Below are positions 4,201-14,945 of a stretch of 20,007 bases of DNA, one piece after another; the first letter of the stretch is position 1, and every line of letters starts with the position of its first letter. Source of the DNA: a virus; IMG/VR virus record IMGVR_UViG_3300044482_000031, positions 1 to 20,007 of that record; one strand, given 5' to 3'. The position numbers were made by a program, and so were the translations under genes. Below the pieces are notes generated by a model. That model made no database searches and had not been told where the DNA came from. It was given only the letters and a program-made list of their open reading frames with translations.

Positions 4201-4364
4201 GACACTGTGGTACTGAGTGCTATACTTGTTCCGGAAGCCGCTGCGGTTGTTGTTTCTAGGCTTGTAGAAGTTCCGGCGGCGGCGGCTCGAATATCTTTGA
4301 GCGCGCGGACGAGTCTCTTCGCGCCAGTCACATCCGCTTTAATGCCTACTCTTAGTTCAGCCAT
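1251..4364 (-). CDS. Phage tail tape measure protein (TP901 family)
   Basis: At 1037 residues this is the longest gene in the window. The first ~135 residues are Ala/Thr/Ser-rich. A Gly/Ala/Val hydrophobic stretch follows at about 136-160. The TP901-type core spans about 165-450, with characteristic stretches such as FITSAGARG (211-219) and LPAASELGV (290-298). Another hydrophobic stretch lies at about 448-477. Charged helical segments suited to coiled coil follow. A Gly-rich C-terminus contains GEKGPEIITP, a signature common at the end of tape measure proteins. Tape measure proteins set tail length and are ejected with the DNA; 1037 residues suggest a tail near 155 nm. The start overlaps the end of the frameshifted chaperone gene by eight bases, with only a weak AGAAGAAG ribosome binding sequence, suggesting translational coupling. 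Confidence 0.95.
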   Translation of the reverse strand: MAELRVGIKADVTGAKRLVRALKDIRAAAAGTSTSLETTTAAASGTSIALSTTVSASGALASSQNLASIANASVSKTLASVAARAAETAGAEAGTTTQTNRLTAAFLRLQAAASASLARTAASAGTIATQMKTAAGSLVGMSTAVVGVGAAIAIAVGVGVKQAKEFESTFAKIQGLVGLTATEVEELKGPMEDIGRAVGKGPNELAEALFFITSAGARGKQALDILEVSAKAAAAGLGETKQVADAVTSAINAYGAENLSAAQATDILVATVREGKAEADSIAGALGQILPAASELGVKFSELGGTIAALTRIGLGADQGATALGATLAAIQKPGQDAKKALEEFGTSASELRAKVKNEGLLVALQDLQERFGDNEEALTRVFPNIRALRAILPLVGKNAGDVGKIFESVANSTGSLDTAMSIVAETTGQKMDVALTAMLFSLKSIGETFLPLVTVVAQAAAIVLKGLEIVVVAIGDAFSFAGKSAKLFGESIAEALIGSDDPIIRNLNNIRELDDELKRLEGGGSLRKFFTSVGGIDLTGDRKQQLEQLREALSLQRIAERQNDREELARQRIALALKNQASAIEEVVEATKEIAFDQELFDSGLKSLTKLKDEVSFLALDLTHLQELGQEGIGLAEDLTETGKILSALQGRTDATAESIRRLVNEKRLLKEKIDAIAEAFQKQKAAVEFLDDLRKSTADVAEAFAFVRAGGALIDIEATQQARQILADLGEGTTETLETITASIIASRAWADALGSIPVNKVDALKTQLKAIQDLQAAEDPESSAFAVMGGQIDALGQSLIDATLQSAGLGTAAEIMFDALPKAEQFAQIRQDIFDAFDLAGIVDPESNPQFIAAIEALQKKMFDTTDFFKEFAIQAARNVQSAFADFLFDPFSNGLDGLLADFTETLKRMASELLSQQLLKSFFSAIGGGGGGILDTIAGQFAEGGNVQAGKPILVGEKGPEIITPRQSGTVIPNDMLGGKQQAPQVSVGGPTIVNTIDDAAIVGAFNRGGGNSVVLNNMTENQSSYRNALGIQ

Positions 4365-5102
4365 GCTTCTTCTGCTCTCGCTTCAGCTTCTCGCGATGAT
4401 GCTCCAGATATTCGCCGTCCATCGTTTGTATGTATCGAACCAGATCAGAACGATCTTCGATTTCATTCAGCCGAGCGTAGGCTTCGATCTCTGAAACAAG
4501 AATCGGCTGTGGTCCATTGAACCCCCACTGCCGCCCTTTGTCGAGAACGCTGAACGCAGCCCAGACCCATTCTACGAGCACATGAACCTGCGGCCACTCC
4601 AGCAGCATTGCTGGCGTCCTGCCAGTTTTTTCCTCGACTAACTCAAGGGCTTTGAGATTCGGTCCTACCTTCAGACTCCACTTCAAAGCCTCTATAAGTT
4701 TTTTTCGTTTTCCTCGATGACCTCTTTGCGAAACGTTTCCCGCGAATTTGCAGCGGTGAGAACATCTTCCTGAAAGTCTTCGAACTCCTTCATCAGCTTT
4801 TCCGCTGCTTCCGGTGAATACTTGACGGCCTTTCCATCGACCTCGATTCCGCGCCATCCGATGACGACATACTTTGCGACAGCCTTGCGTGTCAGATCAT
4901 CGAGCATCTCTCGGAACTCTGCGGTGTTGTTACCTCGCTGAATCCGACGCTCGTGCGGCTTGCGCATCTTCGTCAAAGCATCAGCGAACTTCTTGTTGTT
5001 GGATCGGCGGACAGTGACGAAAGCACCATCACCGAGATCAACTTCAACACCGTTCTTTTCGAGATCAACGTCAGTTGTCCCGTAAGTCTTTTTCAAGTCC
5101 AT
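4357..5102 (-). CDS. Tail assembly chaperone, frameshifted long form (gpGT-like)
   Basis: A -1 frameshift at 4698-4704 joins the first 135 residues of the short chaperone to a 113-residue extension that begins LIEALKWSLK and ends REQKKHG, giving a 248-residue product. The extension frame is also open back to base 4857, but the part before the slippery site is a shadow of the short chaperone and has no convincing start of its own. In lambda, the T part of gpGT recruits tail tube subunits while the G part binds the tape measure. The same division of labour is inferred here from the gene arrangement. The extension contains WPQVHVLVEWVWAAF, a Trp-rich helix. Its end overlaps the tape measure start by eight bases. 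Confidence 0.85.
4648..4690 (-). promoter_or_regulatory. Candidate frameshift-stimulating hairpin
   Basis: Seven bases after the slippery heptamer the minus strand reads GGCTTTGA, and 27 bases later its perfect complement TCAAAGCC (4655-4648). The eight-base stem sits at the five-to-nine-base distance typical of stimulatory structures for -1 frameshifting. The loop contains GGT and ACC segments that could form a small inner stem. The structure was inferred by eye; no folding energy was computed. Confidence 0.6.
4692..5102 (-). CDS. Tail assembly chaperone, short form (gpG-like)
   Basis: This 136-residue protein begins MDLKKTYGTTD, with GGAG six bases before the ATG. It has a short beta-rich start (VEVDLGDGAFVTVRR) followed by a helical, charged remainder, the usual shape of lambda gpG-like chaperones. 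Its position between the tail tube gene and the tape measure gene is the canonical one. Chaperones of this class coat the tape measure protein during tail assembly and are not part of the finished virion. The last codons run over the slippery heptamer A-AAA-AAC and terminate at TAG three codons later, so most ribosomes make this short form and a minority shift to the long form. A strong terminator lies between it and the tail tube gene, which should lower its expression relative to the tube. Confidence 0.88.
   Translation of the reverse strand: MDLKKTYGTTDVDLEKNGVEVDLGDGAFVTVRRSNNKKFADALTKMRKPHERRIQRGNNTAEFREMLDDLTRKAVAKYVVIGWRGIEVDGKAVKYSPEAAEKLMKEFEDFQEDVLTAANSRETFRKEVIEENEKNL
4698..4704 (-). 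other. Programmed -1 ribosomal frameshift slippery site
   Basis: On the minus strand the heptamer is A-AAA-AAC, in exactly the X-XXY-YYZ register of the upstream frame (codons GAA AAA AAC). After slipping back one base, translation continues CTT ATA GAG into the long extension. The heptamer lies three codons before the TAG of the short chaperone. This is one of the most efficient -1 slippery sequences known in bacteria and occurs at the expected place for a G/GT tail chaperone pair. Confidence 0.88.
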
Positions 5103-6824: not shown

Positions 6825-7318
6825 ATATTCCCTAGTCCAGCGGCAATCTCAGCCAAGCTCACAGCGACCATGCCTATCGGAGCTTGTTTCTTCGAATGAC
6901 CATGCTCTAGTGCGGTAATATAACGCACATTGTTGTAAATCCATATAGTCCCGCCGTACTTCGCCGTCGCCATCGCCGTCCACCCAGCCGTTTCCTGCAT
7001 TGTAGATATTTTCTGCTTTGTCACGACACCCGTTTCAGGGTCTTTACTGGAGTCGCTTCCCGCTGTTGCGACGCTGATCTGCCAGTTCGCACGCGCACGC
7101 CCGCCGACGTATCCCTTCGGTGCTGGAAGGGATGATTCGGCCCAGATACTCGGATTTCCGACAGGAGTTTTCTCGATGATGCGCGAAAAGAGATCGATGG
7201 CGATCTTCTTCTGAATAGCGAGATGCTGATCTGGCAGGGTCTTTTCAATGAACACATTGAGTTCGTGCTCGAACTCTCTTCGATTCTTGAACGATAGTTT
7301 GACGACTGGCTTTGCCAT
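6821..7318 (-). CDS. HK97 gp10-like head-tail joining protein
   Basis: This is a 165-residue protein. It begins with a basic segment and a long helix (REFEHELNVFIEKTLPDQ), followed by FSRIIEKTPVGNPSIW, GGRARANWQISV, and a late segment with IYNNVRYITALEHGHSKKQAP (about 126-146). The combination TPV...GRARANW...NN..Y...LE.GHS..QAP is the hallmark of HK97 gp10-type proteins, which act at the junction of head and tail. It starts immediately after the upstream gene's TAG (TAGATG) and its end overlaps the tail terminator gene, so the three connector genes form one translational unit. Confidence 0.87.
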   Translation of the reverse strand: MAKPVVKLSFKNRREFEHELNVFIEKTLPDQHLAIQKKIAIDLFSRIIEKTPVGNPSIWAESSLPAPKGYVGGRARANWQISVATAGSDSSKDPETGVVTKQKISTMQETAGWTAMATAKYGGTIWIYNNVRYITALEHGHSKKQAPIGMVAVSLAEIAAGLGNI

Positions 7319-7681
7319 CTACTGCCTCAACTGGACTTCATACGCCGCCGTCTGTTCTCCAGAGACAATCGGGAAGACCGCGACCACTTGCCATGTCTGC
7401 CCGCCGATGATGAACAGGTCCGCTGATTTCGGCACGATCCCAGACAGCGACGACATGATGATGCGCTGATCTCCTAGCTGGATCAACGTCCCATCAATGC
7501 GCCGCTGATCATACGGGGAAGGCGGAGTGATGCTGATAGTGGTATCGACGTTCGACACGGTGTTCTTCCCGGTCGCGACGTTGTACGTGCGCGAGACCGC
7601 TCGATGCGTCACCGAGAAGCCGAATGTGTTGTCCACAAGCTGCGTCGCCAGCGGCACGAATATGTCGTCAAATTTGGTCAT
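7319..7681 (-). CDS. Head-completion / head-tail stopper-like protein
   Basis: I place the start at the ATG at 7681 because GGGAG lies seven bases upstream; an in-frame start 48 bases earlier lacks such a site. The 120-residue product begins MTKFDDIFVPLATQLVDNTFG and is largely beta strand, with ADLFIIGGQTWQVVAVFPIVSGEQTAAYEVQLRQ-type strands at the end. Small beta-barrel proteins at this place, directly before a gp10-like gene, are usually the stopper that closes the filled head. This is an inference from size, fold pattern and order; I see no family-specific motif. It is the first structural gene after the antisense island and is divergent from it, so it may need a promoter of its own. Confidence 0.7.
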   Translation of the reverse strand: MTKFDDIFVPLATQLVDNTFGFSVTHRAVSRTYNVATGKNTVSNVDTTISITPPSPYDQRRIDGTLIQLGDQRIIMSSLSGIVPKSADLFIIGGQTWQVVAVFPIVSGEQTAAYEVQLRQ

Positions 7682-7700
7682 CGTGGCACTCCCTGTGGGG

Positions 7701-7729
7701 ATTCTAGCTGTTTTTGTGATCTGGGTCAC
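7701..7729 (-). promoter_or_regulatory. Weak candidate leftward promoter before tail module
   Basis: On the minus strand GTGACC (7729-7724) and TAGAAT (7706-7701) are separated by 17 bases, a four-of-six -35 match and a five-of-six -10 match to sigma70. Initiation near 7694 would give a very short leader carrying the GGGAG of the 120-residue gene. The -35 hexamer lies inside the CRP-like palindrome, so a protein bound there would be expected to block it. Sequence-only suggestion. Confidence 0.3.
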
Positions 7730-7730
7730 A
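7715..7730. promoter_or_regulatory. CRP-type operator palindrome
   Basis: The sequence TGTGA TCTGGG TCACA has both five-base half-sites identical to the CRP consensus with the correct six-base spacing, and is flanked by T-rich DNA. It lies in the 143-base divergent region between the leftward head-completion gene and the rightward small-gene cassette, with its centre about 78-79 bases upstream of the expected rightward start site. A homologous regulator such as Vfr or another CRP/FNR-family protein could use such a site. Binding is not demonstrated. Confidence 0.6.
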
Positions 7731-7766
7731 TTTTTCGTATTTCCTCAATAAATCGTGGAAATTAGC

Positions 7767-7794
7767 TTGACTCCCTGAGTTTTAAGCGTATATT
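7767..7794 (+). promoter_or_regulatory. Rightward sigma70-type promoter for the antisense island
   Basis: TTGACT (7767-7772) and TATATT (7789-7794) are five-of-six matches to the -35 and -10 hexamers with a 16-base spacer. Transcription would start near 7801, leaving a leader of about 24 bases with AAGGAG before the first ATG at 7825. It is the clearest promoter in the window and points against the structural genes. Confidence 0.75.
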
Positions 7795-7824
7795 GAAGAT
7801 GTGGGACAGAGAAAGGAGAACGAA

Positions 7825-7947
7825 ATGACAGACACCAAGAACTTCAAGACCATCGCCACCAAGAGAGAGACTGGTGAGACGAAGACCTTTTACGGTTTCT
7901 TCATTCCGCATCACAACGCTGCCGCGAAAGCTTGGCTGGCAGCATAA
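7825..7947 (+). CDS. Small hypothetical protein (40 aa), first gene of island
   Basis: An ATG follows AAGGAG at good spacing, opening a 40-codon frame ending TAA: it starts MTDTKNFKTIATKRETG and ends AAAKAWLAA. The short coding length would miss most size cut-offs. It is supported by a strong ribosome binding site, a promoter just upstream and a second well-formed ribosome binding site beginning at its stop codon. The product is basic, soluble and has no membrane segment; it contains FYGFFIPHH. I recognise no family. Small basic proteins of this sort in phages are often expressed early to bind host proteins or nucleic acid, but nothing here proves that. Confidence 0.65.
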   Translation: MTDTKNFKTIATKRETGETKTFYGFFIPHHNAAAKAWLAA

Positions 7948-7959
7948 AGGAGAGATGAG

Positions 7960-8340
7960 ATGAGAATCACAGTAATGCACATCAGGAAATTCGACGGCGT
8001 AGAACGCGCACGCTTGAACGGTTCGAACGGCGGATGGGATTCAGAGCCGCGCTTCAGCCGCTACGCGGACGCTACGATGTTTCCGGACGACGCAGCCATT
8101 CGCGCGGTCTGGGAAGCTGGCGAGTACGACGTGATCGCCGATCTGGAAGTCGCCGATCTGGAAGTCGCGTTCTCGATGTCGAACAGCATCAACGGCAACT
8201 GGACTGAGAATTCTGAAGTCACCAGCTACAGCGGTGATGGCAAGGAGCGCAGCACGAGCGTCGGAGACATACTGGCGAACCCGGACACTGGCGAGTACTA
8301 CTACGTCGCACCGATGGGATTTGAGAAGTTCGTAATCTAA
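7960..8340 (+). CDS. Hypothetical acidic protein (126 aa), second gene of island
   Basis: The start ATG at 7960 follows AAGGAGAG spaced normally; another ATG four bases upstream is out of frame. The product begins MRITVMHIRKFDGVERARL and is acidic overall, with helices in the middle (DDAAIRAVWEAGEYDVIADL) and a Tyr-rich end (DTGEYYYVAPMGFEKFVI). A perfect 15-base tandem duplication gives a repeated A-D-L-E-V. No signal peptide or membrane segment is visible. It is separated by 12 bases from the previous gene and 11 from the next and clearly shares their transcript. I do not recognise the family. Confidence 0.75.
   Translation: MRITVMHIRKFDGVERARLNGSNGGWDSEPRFSRYADATMFPDDAAIRAVWEAGEYDVIADLEVADLEVAFSMSNSINGNWTENSEVTSYSGDGKERSTSVGDILANPDTGEYYYVAPMGFEKFVI
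8136..8165 (+). repeat. 15-base perfect tandem duplication within the 126-aa gene
   Basis: CGCCGATCTGGAAGT occurs twice back to back (8136-8150, 8151-8165) and keeps the reading frame, duplicating five residues (ADLEV). The perfect identity suggests a recent slippage event. Confidence 0.9.
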
Positions 8341-8351
8341 GAGGAAGTATT

Positions 8352-8636
8352 GTGAAATGGATCAAAGAACATCATGAAGGATCACCCGGAAGTCGCGGCT
8401 GGAATAATTACCGAAGCGACGACGGTGTGTTCTTCATTCGTCAGAACTCCAGTGGACCACGCTGGATCATCACGACGACCGACGGATCAAAGCGGTTCAA
8501 CGGACCTCGCGGAGTACGATCACATGTAGCCGTGGCGTATAACATCGAAGACGCGAAATCTGTATGCGCCAGCACCTACTTCAAGATCGCCACCATCAGC
8601 ACGATCACGAGTGAGAAGAACGCGACCATTGAATAG
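8352..8636 (+). CDS. Hypothetical protein (94 aa), third gene of island
   Basis: The frame opens with GTG at 8352, preceded by GAGGAAG eight or so bases upstream, and encodes (V)KWIKEHHEGSPGSRG at its N-terminus. The middle contains SGPRWIITTTDGSKRFNGP, a pattern seen in many small phage proteins in which a Trp-containing beta strand is followed by a DG turn, then a helix (NIEDAKSVCAS). The C-terminus is Ser/Thr-rich. The last 61 bases overlap, tail to tail, the 58-residue membrane protein gene on the minus strand, so the two transcripts would be complementary there. Function unknown. Confidence 0.7.
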   Translation: MKWIKEHHEGSPGSRGWNNYRSDDGVFFIRQNSSGPRWIITTTDGSKRFNGPRGVRSHVAVAYNIEDAKSVCASTYFKIATISTITSEKNATIE

Positions 8637-8752
8637 TTCACCGAGAACTTTTCATACTTGATCGTCGGAAGCCCGGTCATCATCTCCCACCAGCCAAAGA
8701 ATCCACCGATGTTCTTCATCAGGAATGCCATCAATGCGTCGAGATATTTCAT
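8576..8752 (-). CDS. Small single-pass membrane protein (58 aa)
   Basis: The start ATG at 8752 follows the DnaT-like gene's stop by one base (TAATATG), with AGGA eight bases upstream inside that gene. An upstream in-frame start would overlap the previous gene and has no ribosome binding site. The product begins MKYLDALMAFLMKNIGGFFGWWEMM, an amphipathic Trp/Phe-rich segment, and ends with a clear membrane span (about 41-57, MVAFFSLVIVLMVAILK). One span and a short C-terminus give no safe class; a holin-like or superinfection-exclusion role is possible but unsupported. It is the last leftward gene before the antisense island and converges on it. Confidence 0.65.
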   Translation of the reverse strand: MKYLDALMAFLMKNIGGFFGWWEMMTGLPTIKYEKFSVNYSMVAFFSLVIVLMVAILK

Positions 8753-8753
8753 A

Positions 8754-9338
8754 TTAGTTCCTAAAGATTTGCCCGCTGAATGCGTTTCCAAGATCAAGGA
8801 ACGGAGCGATTGTCTGTTCGACGTTCCAGTACTTCGTCGTCTGGCGTGATGAGCCTTGCGCCTGATCGAAGTATTCTACTTCGAGCACGCCGAGCTTTTC
8901 TCGCTTCGTCGTTCGTCCGAGCGCTGGCTGAATCACGCCTGTCGATAATGACCCGCTGAACGTTTCATTCGCGACGAGAATTTGCGCGACCTTCGCTTCA
9001 TACAGCACTTGGTTTTCTGGAATCCAGTACGTGTCCTGAAAGTCGAGCGGCACGTTTGACAGATCACGGTAGAACGGATCAAAGAAGTCTGGCACAGCAA
9101 CACCGCGTCGCGGCCATGACAAGCGTTGCGTCACGGTCGCGCGCGCGCCTGTCCAGAGCAGACGGAACTTCTGCTCCAAGTAGTCCGCACCCTTGATCAA
9201 CGCCGCAGAGATTTGATCGTCGTCAGCTTCCGCGAGTGTCGTGTTTCCACGTTCTTCATTGAACGACACGAACTCCGCCACTGTAGCAAGGGAATTTGCA
9301 TTCGATAGTCCTGCGCCTGTTTCAACCGTCAACGCCAT
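8754..9338 (-). CDS. DnaT-like head-tail connector protein
   Basis: The 194-residue protein begins MALTVETGAGLSNANSLATVAEFVSFNEERG, the opening typical of phage proteins annotated as putative DnaT-like ssDNA-binding proteins, which in structural clusters behave as head-tail connector (adaptor) components. Supporting segments are AALIKGADYLEQKF (46-59), a TQRLSWPRRGV-like motif (70-80), and EAKVAQILVANET, an extended helix. The WPR segment after a helix recurs in this family. AGGAG lies six bases before the ATG. The stop of the upstream adaptor-like gene is nine bases away. The DnaT name is historic for the family; a replication role is unlikely here given the neighbours. Confidence 0.8.
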   Translation of the reverse strand: MALTVETGAGLSNANSLATVAEFVSFNEERGNTTLAEADDDQISAALIKGADYLEQKFRLLWTGARATVTQRLSWPRRGVAVPDFFDPFYRDLSNVPLDFQDTYWIPENQVLYEAKVAQILVANETFSGSLSTGVIQPALGRTTKREKLGVLEVEYFDQAQGSSRQTTKYWNVEQTIAPFLDLGNAFSGQIFRN

Positions 9339-9347
9339 TTCATTCTC

Positions 9348-9710
9348 CTATTTCGACGCAATCTTGATCGTCGCCCGTCGCGTGTAACATCGCGGACCGG
9401 GGACTGCTTCGCTGTCGATTGCATCGATCCTGAGTGTGTACTTCGCACCGAGCCGACCATCTTTCAGCCAGATCAAAACCTGATCATTGATAGACGGAGA
9501 CGTCGCACCACTCGACACAACTTCGCACTGTGGCGATCCAATGAAATCAAGTTCCAGTTCTGAATTCGGTGAAGGTTCCGCCGGATCGACGGCTTCGATT
9601 GTGCATTGAGCCGAGACAAGCTGCGTCCCTGCCGGGAGCAAGTCGGTGAACTCGACGGTGTAGTCGAGACATTCACGCGGGTCTTTGTTGTCAAATTTAA
9701 TGAAAGCCAT
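9348..9710 (-). CDS. Fiber-tail adaptor-like / Ig-like phage protein
   Basis: The 120-residue product begins MAFIKFDNKDPRECLDYTVEFTDLLP. The pattern K-DP-x(3)-LDYTV-(D/E)(W/F)-x-D-x-L followed by a beta sandwich with VLIWLKDGRLGAKYTLRIDA and a terminal RRATIKI strand fits small phage virion proteins often annotated as fiber-tail adaptors. Its start overlaps the previous stop as TGATG. It sits between the nonapeptide-repeat protein and the DnaT-like connector, consistent with a role in the virion rather than in DNA metabolism. The family name is from memory of the pattern, not from a search. Confidence 0.62.
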   Translation of the reverse strand: MAFIKFDNKDPRECLDYTVEFTDLLPAGTQLVSAQCTIEAVDPAEPSPNSELELDFIGSPQCEVVSSGATSPSINDQVLIWLKDGRLGAKYTLRIDAIDSEAVPGPRCYTRRATIKIASK

Positions 9711-10210
9711 CAGCAGTCCTCAAGTTCATGTTTACGATCCTGAGAGCCAGCCGTCCCGGTTCGGTTCTCTTCACTCGTACTTCCGTCTCTGGTCTCGGTA
9801 GCTACAGCCCCGCCCCTATTTTCGGAAGAGACCGTGGAAATTCGAGACTCACTTCCAGCGCGACGGTTGCGATCCAGCTTCCCGGCTGTGTCACGGCGAT
9901 TCTCCGCAGCGATCTTGTGCGTCCGGGACGATGGATCAAGCAGAGCGTCACGATCTTCGCTGCCCACAATGGCGACGCGTCCTTCTGCGTCCACGATCCG
10001 TGACCGGGCTTCCCCGGACACACTTGCCGCTCGTGATTCTGCGATGATAGCTGCCATTCGATCCTCTTCCAGTACCCTGAATATTTTCCGCGCTGTGCGG
10101 ATGATAACATCAAGAAAGCGCTCGCGCGTAAGTCCGTAAGCTGCCATCGAGCCAATATATGAGTCGGTATCAGTGTTCCGCCCGAACCCGTATGCGATAT
10201 GAATCGTCAT
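9710..10210 (-). CDS. Phage protein with E-x-R nonapeptide repeats
   Basis: The 166-residue protein has two parts. Residues 1-48 form a short N-terminal region (MTIHIAYGFGRNTDTDSYIG, then a helix with RERFLDVIIRTARKIFRVLEE). From residue 49 to 159 arginine occurs every nine residues without exception (51, 60, 69, 78, 87, 96, 105, 114, 123, 132, 141, 150, 159), usually preceded by E-x, with Ser/Ala/Thr/Gly/Val between. Such regular short repeats suggest a solenoid or fibrous fold with the E and R stacked in ladders. I recall similar ENR-type repeats in other phage virion proteins. ATGA overlaps link it to the gene upstream, and TGATG to the one downstream, so it is probably made in proportion to those virion proteins. 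Confidence 0.82.
   Translation of the reverse strand: MTIHIAYGFGRNTDTDSYIGSMAAYGLTRERFLDVIIRTARKIFRVLEEDRMAAIIAESRAASVSGEARSRIVDAEGRVAIVGSEDRDALLDPSSRTHKIAAENRRDTAGKLDRNRRAGSESRISTVSSENRGGAVATETRDGSTSEENRTGTAGSQDRKHELEDC
9734..10066 (-). repeat. Coding 27-base repeat array (13 E-x-R nonapeptide units)
   Basis: The protein-level repeat has an exact period of nine residues over thirteen units, while the DNA copies have diverged enough that no long identical repeat remains. The array occupies the C-terminal two thirds of the gene. Examples of consecutive units are ESRISTVSS, ENRGGAVAT and ETRDGSTSE. Confidence 0.88.
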
Positions 10211-12995: not shown

Positions 12996-14945
12996 TTAAA
13001 CCGGGTTCGAGTAGTTTCTTTCCAGACCAGCCGTCAGCGTGAATGAAAGTCCGACGGTTCGAGTGATCGCACCCGTCGTCTCCACGAACTGTGCTGTCTC
13101 CAGACCGATTGCGCGGAGCAGTACTGCCGCATCCGTTGACGCCGTTCTTCCGCCTTGAACGTTCCCATCGTAGTCGTAGTCGAACGCCGCTGTCGGACCA
13201 CTGATCGCGCCTGTAATCGGCAACGGTGAGAACGACCCGGCAGAATCGACAATGATCGCATCCGGAGAGTTGATCGGGTTCTTGTCGAGCGTACCTGATC
13301 CCGGTCCGGTCTCGTTCGACACCGTGTCTTGATTGGTCTTCGAGATCGATGCCGTATTCGGTGACACCGCTCCGAAGCCTGTGACTTGCCAGATGCCGTT
13401 GTTGTTCGGATCGACGAATCCCTGAAGATTGATGTAATCGTTTGTCGTGAGTTCCGTTTCGAGATTCACCGTTGTCGATGCGAGCGTCGCAGTGAACCCG
13501 GAAGCCGCCGAGAGAGTAAAGATTTCAGTGAAGCGCTCCGTGTACTCGTAGAACATCCAGAACGTGCCGATGCTGTCGTTGACCAAGTTCGCGTTGAAGT
13601 TGATCGTGCCAGCGGCGACGAACGGGAAAGTCCTGCGTGCGGTTGTTCCGAACTCGTTGTCAGCGAATGACAGCCTGTTCGTGTCGTTGCTGTCGAAGTT
13701 CGTGACGTACACGCCAGTCCCGCCACCGAGCGGATTCGTCGCTGACAACGTCTGCATCGCGTCTCCTACGAATGACAGAAGCTCGTCAGCGATGTTGCCC
13801 GCGACAACTGTTCCGCCACCATCGTTGATGTCGGCTGCTTGTCGCAATGACCACTGAACGTATTCATACGCCTGTTCCGCCGTGTAGCCTTGTGCATCGA
13901 TGACGATGCCGAAGTCCGCCGTTGTATTCGGGGAGTTCGTACTCGCGGCATCGGCGACGAAACCAGTGAACGTCTGCGGCGCGGCGAAGTACGTTATCGT
14001 GACAACCGGAGAGCGAGCGATGATCGTCGCATCTGTGTTTGTTACCTTCAGATCAGCGCCGTTAGATACGGGGAATCGATACGCCTGATATGTCAGCGTT
14101 GTAACACCGATGTCCGTCAGGTTTGCCGCCGAGAAGGTCTTACCGCTACCGAATCCGGCGTCGTACCCTTCACGAAGCAGGATCGTGAATGCGTTGCGGA
14201 ATTCTTTCGCAATGCGTGACCCTTGATCCGATCCAGTGTTTCCAGTGAACGGCGTACCAGACACAGTGAGCACGGTCCCGGTGACGTTCGTCAATACGAA
14301 CGTTCCATTGCGTGCGGTGTTGTCTGATCCGACCACGACTGCCCTTGCACCAATGGCAAAGCCATCAGTCAGGAAGCTTCCGCCGTCGTTCCGGGTAATT
14401 GAAGACGCAGCGAAGGTATGCCCCGGAGATGTAGTGTCAGCAGGAACGATTTCTTCATACGACAGAACGGGTTCGTTGACAGCATCCGGGCGATCAAAGT
14501 TCGTCGCCGCTGCGGTGTCTGAGGTGTCTGTGCCTTGCTGGTAGTACGCCTGATCAGTTACTTCGGCGAACGCTCCCAGTGTGACTACCCCGAAGAACTC
14601 TTTCTTCAACACATCGAGTTCGTTGATCTCACGCCATCCGCACGTCTTCATTCGAAGTCGTGTCTTGTTGTTCTCCGGCTCCCAGTCAGAGATAAACTCG
14701 AACTGCTCCGGAGTAATGGCGATCATCGGGAATGGATGGGGAATCTTTGTCGCGTCGTTCTTCCACTCTTCTTTGAAGAACGAATAGATCGCTTGTCCGG
14801 TTACTCCATCAGAATCAATTCGCGATAATGGTGACTGCGCCGGAGAAGCATCGGTATCGATAACGATGCCAAACTTCCGCAATGCGGTGCTGATGTAAAC
14901 TTCTCTGTTCTGACTGATGAAATCCGGATCGACAGTGATTGTCAT
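12996..14945 (-). CDS. Large phage structural protein (649 aa)
   Basis: The ATG follows AAGGAGAGAG closely. The N-terminal ~165 residues form a mixed domain with VTGQAIYSFFKEEWKND (48-64) and FPMIAITPEQFEF (72-84). A small beta domain follows at about 175-245 (SFLTDGFAIGARAVVVGSDN). A central domain (about 250-475) contains EQAYEYVQWSLRQAADIND and NPLGGGTGVYVTNFD. A second small beta domain lies at about 480-550, and a C-terminal domain ends LTAGLERNYSNPV. I recognise the overall type as a conserved virion protein of siphophages but cannot name its part. A dedicated terminator behind it suggests high expression, like capsid and tube. Its distance from the tail tube gene argues against a tail sheath. 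Confidence 0.75.
   Translation of the reverse strand: MTITVDPDFISQNREVYISTALRKFGIVIDTDASPAQSPLSRIDSDGVTGQAIYSFFKEEWKNDATKIPHPFPMIAITPEQFEFISDWEPENNKTRLRMKTCGWREINELDVLKKEFFGVVTLGAFAEVTDQAYYQQGTDTSDTAAATNFDRPDAVNEPVLSYEEIVPADTTSPGHTFAASSITRNDGGSFLTDGFAIGARAVVVGSDNTARNGTFVLTNVTGTVLTVSGTPFTGNTGSDQGSRIAKEFRNAFTILLREGYDAGFGSGKTFSAANLTDIGVTTLTYQAYRFPVSNGADLKVTNTDATIIARSPVVTITYFAAPQTFTGFVADAASTNSPNTTADFGIVIDAQGYTAEQAYEYVQWSLRQAADINDGGGTVVAGNIADELLSFVGDAMQTLSATNPLGGGTGVYVTNFDSNDTNRLSFADNEFGTTARRTFPFVAAGTINFNANLVNDSIGTFWMFYEYTERFTEIFTLSAASGFTATLASTTVNLETELTTNDYINLQGFVDPNNNGIWQVTGFGAVSPNTASISKTNQDTVSNETGPGSGTLDKNPINSPDAIIVDSAGSFSPLPITGAISGPTAAFDYDYDGNVQGGRTASTDAAVLLRAIGLETAQFVETTGAITRTVGLSFTLTAGLERNYSNPV

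Follow-up and report, generated by a model that had tools for sequence, protein, structure and literature searches.

Why should a block of small plus-strand genes stand in the middle of a phage virion operon that is read in the opposite direction? The window analysed here is one complete viral record of 20,007 bases, linear and probably a fragment, in which nearly all genes run leftward (minus strand) and encode virion parts, namely the major head protein, scaffold, Ad1, Hc1, neck protein, tail terminator, tail tube and tape measure. Between the minus-strand genes for the head-tail adaptor (Ad1, phrog_477) and the head closure protein (Hc1, phrog_161), a sequence-only reading had described a plus-strand island resembling a moron, and this island is real. 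Its left boundary, placed at 7682 in that reading, agrees with the best placement of the Hc1 start, at ATG 7681. We propose that the island is probably an exchangeable cargo cassette of early type, inserted in antisense orientation where Ad1 and Hc1 meet in the late operon, with products that most likely target the host or competing phages (Table 1).

Table 1. Features at the Ad1/Hc1 junction and antisense cassettes of two relatives; positions are those of the window unless a relative (G006, G007) is named
Feature	Positions	Strand	Remarks
Hc1, head closure, flanking gene	7319..7681	-	phrog_161; start placed by alignment
CRP-like palindrome TGTGATCTGGGTCACA, upstream of promoter	7715..7730		exact match
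Sigma-70-type promoter TTGACT-16-TATATT	7767..7794	+	10/12 match
Leader CAGAGAAAGGAGAACGAA with Shine-Dalgarno	7807..7824	+	type common to other antisense cassettes and to relatives' nonstructural genes
I1, 40 aa	7825..7947	+	coding score 17.1 (null maximum 16.4); identical in L002
I2, 126 aa, phrog_37892-like	7960..8340	+	coding score 33.7; PHROG E 2.5e-5
I3, 94-aa ORF, probable gene	8352..8636	+	position and ribosome site; coding score 7.0
Sense-strand gene, 58 aa, apparently membrane protein	8576..8752	-	homologue at same place in G001, E 5e-6
Ad1, head-tail adaptor, flanking gene	8754..9338	-	phrog_477
G006 cassette after scaffold gene	53231-54157	antisense	87, 101 and 91 aa
G006 cassette, tail region	28097-28306	antisense	69 aa
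G007 cassette between tail tube and tail chaperone	2290-2863	antisense	65, 68 and 53 aa

All three plus-strand frames of the island are present as previously read, each with a Shine-Dalgarno-like sequence. The frames were scored by codon log-odds, with the late genes as training set. I1 and I2 score higher than anything in the two null sets, namely 66 antisense ORFs located in late genes (maximum 9.0) and 100 synonymous shuffles (maximum 16.4), and are therefore supported as genes. The score of I3 falls within the null range and is not significant, leaving two of the three claimed genes with coding support and the third as a probable gene. Of the minus-strand ORFs opposite the island, the gene caller chose none except that at 8576-8752. 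The promoter, I1 and codons 1 to 36 of I2 are also present in a contig that is 93% identical to the window over 4.5 kb (L002). A single base differs across this stretch, too little variation for selection to be measured, and promoter, leader and I1 have the same sequence in both, although the neighbouring neck gene differs. The differences in the neck gene (about 20) are clustered at 7046-7169 between stretches of 96-100% identity, and the tape measure proteins of the two share only 50% identity, a pattern that by sequence comparison is a recombination mosaic.

The gene at 8576-8752 was missed by the sequence-only reading. It lies on the late strand, begins one base past the Ad1 stop (TAA T ATG), overlaps I3 tail-to-tail by 61 bp at its 3' end and encodes a protein with a hydrophobic C-terminus. 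Its homologue in the closest different species in our sample (G001; 33% identity) overlaps the stop of Ad1 (TGATG), an arrangement that Hc1 itself shows in L013, a relative with an empty junction. A start at or over the stop of Ad1 implies that the sense gene is most likely translated from the late message. A weak match to this gene in L045 was judged spurious.

The strong promoter reported ahead of the island was confirmed at the sequence level, and it is the only match to TTGACN16-19TATAWT in the 20-kb window, where about 0.05 would be expected. Further upstream lies the palindrome TGTGATCTGGGTCACA, about 70-75 bases from the predicted transcription start of the cassette and, on the other side, 33 bp ahead of the start of Hc1. 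Approximately 0.8 CRP-like sites with at most one mismatch are expected by chance in the whole window and the palindrome is absent in G001; it is a possible regulatory site, CRP-like by sequence. Simple scans found no convincing terminator on either strand at the convergent end of the cassette, and a candidate restart promoter before Hc1 (GTGACC-17-TAGAAT, 9/12) was no better than chance.

Comparison with relatives shows that the block varies by presence and absence at this junction. In 26 viral contigs with Ad1 identities of 41-65% (some of them near-duplicates), no gap separates Ad1 from Hc1, the two genes abutting or overlapping; they also adjoin in Caulobacter phage DMCA and in L082, making the junction seamless in 28 more distant relatives in all. 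The sister species G001 (Ad1 70%, tail tube 83% identity), by contrast, has 1.67 kb at the same place, comprising four antisense genes (71, 70, 115 and 188 aa) that score as protein-coding with good ribosome sites, under a perfect TTGACA-16-TATAAT promoter. None of these genes resembles I1-I3. Different genes in the same slot of the closest relative therefore make it look like an exchangeable cargo site. The sequence-only reading had regarded a lack of conservation of the frames as evidence against a cassette, and taken literally the frames are not conserved, yet an exchangeable cassette would be expected to turn over. The sampled carriers of the slot are the window, L002 (whose contig ends inside I2) and G001. 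In a concatenated tree the window and G001 form a split with 100% bootstrap, and most simply the slot and its sense gene would have been gained once in their common ancestor with the antisense content exchanged afterwards; two separate gains are possible. Just upstream of Ad1, two genes at 9348-10210 are present in distant relatives (L004, L005, L006 and L018) and gave no match in the nearer G001, G002 and G003, where other genes occupy that place.

The sequence-only reading recognised no family among the three products. This holds for I1 and I3, for which the searched collections yielded no relatives, whereas I2 does belong to a family, phrog_37892, albeit one without known function. Relatives of I2 occur in phages phiM12 and phiN3 and in jumbo phages (the 595-kb LR756511 and a 340-kb contig); its C-terminal RSxSxGD...GF/GW region is common to this family including phiM12 gp473, and it shares an N-terminal DSEPR stretch with the phiM12 protein. 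The phiM12 relative sits in a long run of hypothetical genes that all point in one direction, unlike I2 in its antisense cassette. The 188-aa gene of G001 resembles gp666 of Bacillus phage G (E 4e-8). With relatives of both proteins in very large phages, the cassette genes appear to be drawn from a pool that those phages also use. Family searches with I1 and I3 (PHROGs, Pfam, NCBIfam, PADLOC and phage genomes, and for I3 also PDB) gave nothing useful, and tblastn against 50,697 phage records found no match for I1, I3 or the sense gene and no Mu-like phage among the matches of I2. PADLOC returned no match up to E 1 for the cassette proteins of the window or of G001, and an anti-CRISPR (acr-aca) test found no Pfam match to a helix-turn-helix Aca in I1-I3 or the G001 cassette. 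AlphaFold models of I2 (mean pLDDT 44.5, 3-row alignment) and I3 (47.8, single sequence) were too poor for fold searches. Hotspots for anti-phage systems in P2-like phages and in P4-like satellites resemble this slot in holding different cargo per relative at a single locus (PMC9122126). Those hotspots carry tested defence systems, whereas here there is no PADLOC match and only two cargo types were observed in the slot.

Antisense cassettes are also found at other late junctions. The 64-kb relative G006 has an empty Ad1/Hc1 junction and carries antisense genes elsewhere, as does G007 (Table 1), although most other relatives have no antisense cassette within the stretch seen. The leader motif AGA(GA)AAGG, counted within 25 bases of the start, precedes all five first genes of cassettes, three of the eight other cassette genes, 2 of 143 late-strand genes of the structural region and 30 of the 154 remaining genes. 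The difference between first cassette genes and late genes (Fisher P 4e-8) is optimistic because the motif was picked after the cassettes were seen; that between the remaining, mostly nonstructural, genes and late genes (P 1e-7) involves no cassette genes. The motif resembles a strong ribosome-binding site in general. This distribution suggests that each cassette is a unit of early type within a late-gene region.

In G007 a perfect GC-rich hairpin with a T-run (L069:2866-2890) lies on the late strand directly past the tail tube and before the antisense cassette, and a very distant relative (L030:8811-10265) has three antisense genes directly past the tail tube, the same junction as in G007.

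The moron interpretation is sound insofar as the cassette has its own promoter, a junction that is seamless in relatives, and swapped content; the implied benefit to a lysogen is not supported. We found neither a tyrosine integrase (PF00589) nor a serine resolvase (PF00239) in ten relatives, three of which (those of 64-67 kb) encode DNA polymerase A (DNA_pol_A), and a search of 84,980 genomes with the tail tube and Ad1 as markers recovered no relative. Since both the window and the phages nearest to it are represented by fragments, the lack of an integrase is judged from phages that are more distant. These findings favour a virulent lifestyle over lysogenic conversion.

Four other explanations were weighed against an exchangeable early-type cassette. 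Among published systems, the anatomy that appears closest is the Tab/anti-Tab pair of the temperate Pseudomonas aeruginosa phage JBD26, in which one antisense gene, tab, with its own promoter, is the blocker and sense gene 30, overlapping the stop of the upstream late gene by one base, is the antidote (PMC10884400). In a system of that type the blocker stops other phages from assembling their tails, and the antidote binds the blocker. Likewise, the junction here combines small antisense genes under their own promoter between adjacent late genes with a small sense gene coupled to the stop of the upstream late gene, in the window and in G001. An exclusion pair of this kind, whose antisense product would block the virion assembly of other phages while the late sense membrane protein protects the phage's own, is nonetheless unlikely. 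The JBD26 slot lies between the small and large terminase genes (PMC10884400) rather than between Ad1 and Hc1, and holds one antisense gene, as opposed to three or four with swapped content beside a persistent sense gene. Wholly different antisense genes alongside a retained sense gene, as between the window and G001, misfit a specific antidote; the sense protein looks membrane-bound, no such partner was seen for the cassettes of G006 and G007, and no temperate functions or sign of lysogeny were found in the relatives. We regard as quite improbable a unit expressed from a prophage that alters host fitness or excludes other phages. Morons (Cumby et al. 2012, cited in PMC9122126) are additional genes that bring a promoter of their own, lie between virion genes and are missing from close relatives. 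The cassette matches that description in its promoter, which is independent of the surrounding operon, its insertion among late genes at a place where 28 relatives have abutting genes, and its absence from close relatives; its content turnover would also suit a moron. It departs from the description in being antisense to the operon, in comprising several genes, in the lack of a terminator at its end by simple scans and in showing no evidence of lysogeny. Lysogeny genes could lie outside the window, which is a fragment, yet the lack of an integrase in ten relatives, including the three of 64-67 kb with DNA polymerase A, leaves a lysogenic moron unsupported, and neither marker protein led to a relative in the 84,980 genomes.

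The remaining two explanations question the proteins themselves. A strong convergent promoter within a late operon, with a terminator found on neither strand, would suit a promoter that mainly makes antisense RNA to delay or dampen late transcription, the proteins being secondary. Such a transcript would oppose Ad1 and the genes upstream of it only if it continued past 8636, and coding scores together with good ribosome sites support I1, I2 and the four genes of G001 as protein-coding; with most relatives doing without a cassette at all, this explanation is very improbable. Lower still in our estimation is a decaying insert of chance frames with no present function. The unsupported coding of I3 and the small number of carriers would fit such an insert, but I1 and I2 score above the null, and L002 retains the same promoter, leader and I1 despite the differences in its neighbouring neck gene.

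For the exchangeable early-type cassette, we predict the following course of expression. The host sigma-70-type promoter would drive the cassette without phage late factors, so that I1, I2 and probably I3 would be made soon after DNA entry. Strong leftward late transcription would later cross the cassette as antisense and turn it down, while translation of the sense-strand membrane-protein gene would use the late message and be coupled to that of Ad1. Early in lytic infection, the products most likely target the host or rival phages, in takeover, anti-defence or exclusion. A broader possibility, which we offer tentatively and consider somewhat doubtful, is that a group of apparently virulent siphophages keeps several exchangeable "early pockets" antisense at different head and tail junctions, where early genes would be read first and then shut off by late transcription, such that position itself acts as a timing switch. 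For this uncultured phage group, the locus points out a slot for exchangeable cargo, filled with two unrelated gene sets in sister phages, and such slots are good places to seek small phage proteins that target hosts or competing phages. From the antisense layout it follows as a prediction that late transcription switches the early cassette off.

The record of G006 contains seven perfect TTGACA/TATAAT promoters compared with about 0.02 expected. Their places include L056:6296, L057:7829 and 8039, and L058 (minus strand near 13034-14030), and their spacers are similar. A spacer motif (GG/GATAA) was rejected as a common early-promoter signature, with the hexamers alone shared with G001 and a different spacer in the window. 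The near-palindrome GTGYTATAATTATAACAC covers the -10 box at some of the seven promoters, which suggests a dispersed repressor operator. Between two of them, about 175 bases without an ORF (L057:7862-8036) may encode a phage RNA; this region folds moderately better than its shuffles (z -1.9) and had no convincing match in Rfam. In the window itself, two minus-strand tail-chaperone ORFs (4692-5102 and 4357-4857) overlap at 4692-4857, and the slippery sequence GAAAAAAAC lies just ahead of the first stop, making this overlap a likely programmed frameshift of the G/GT type.
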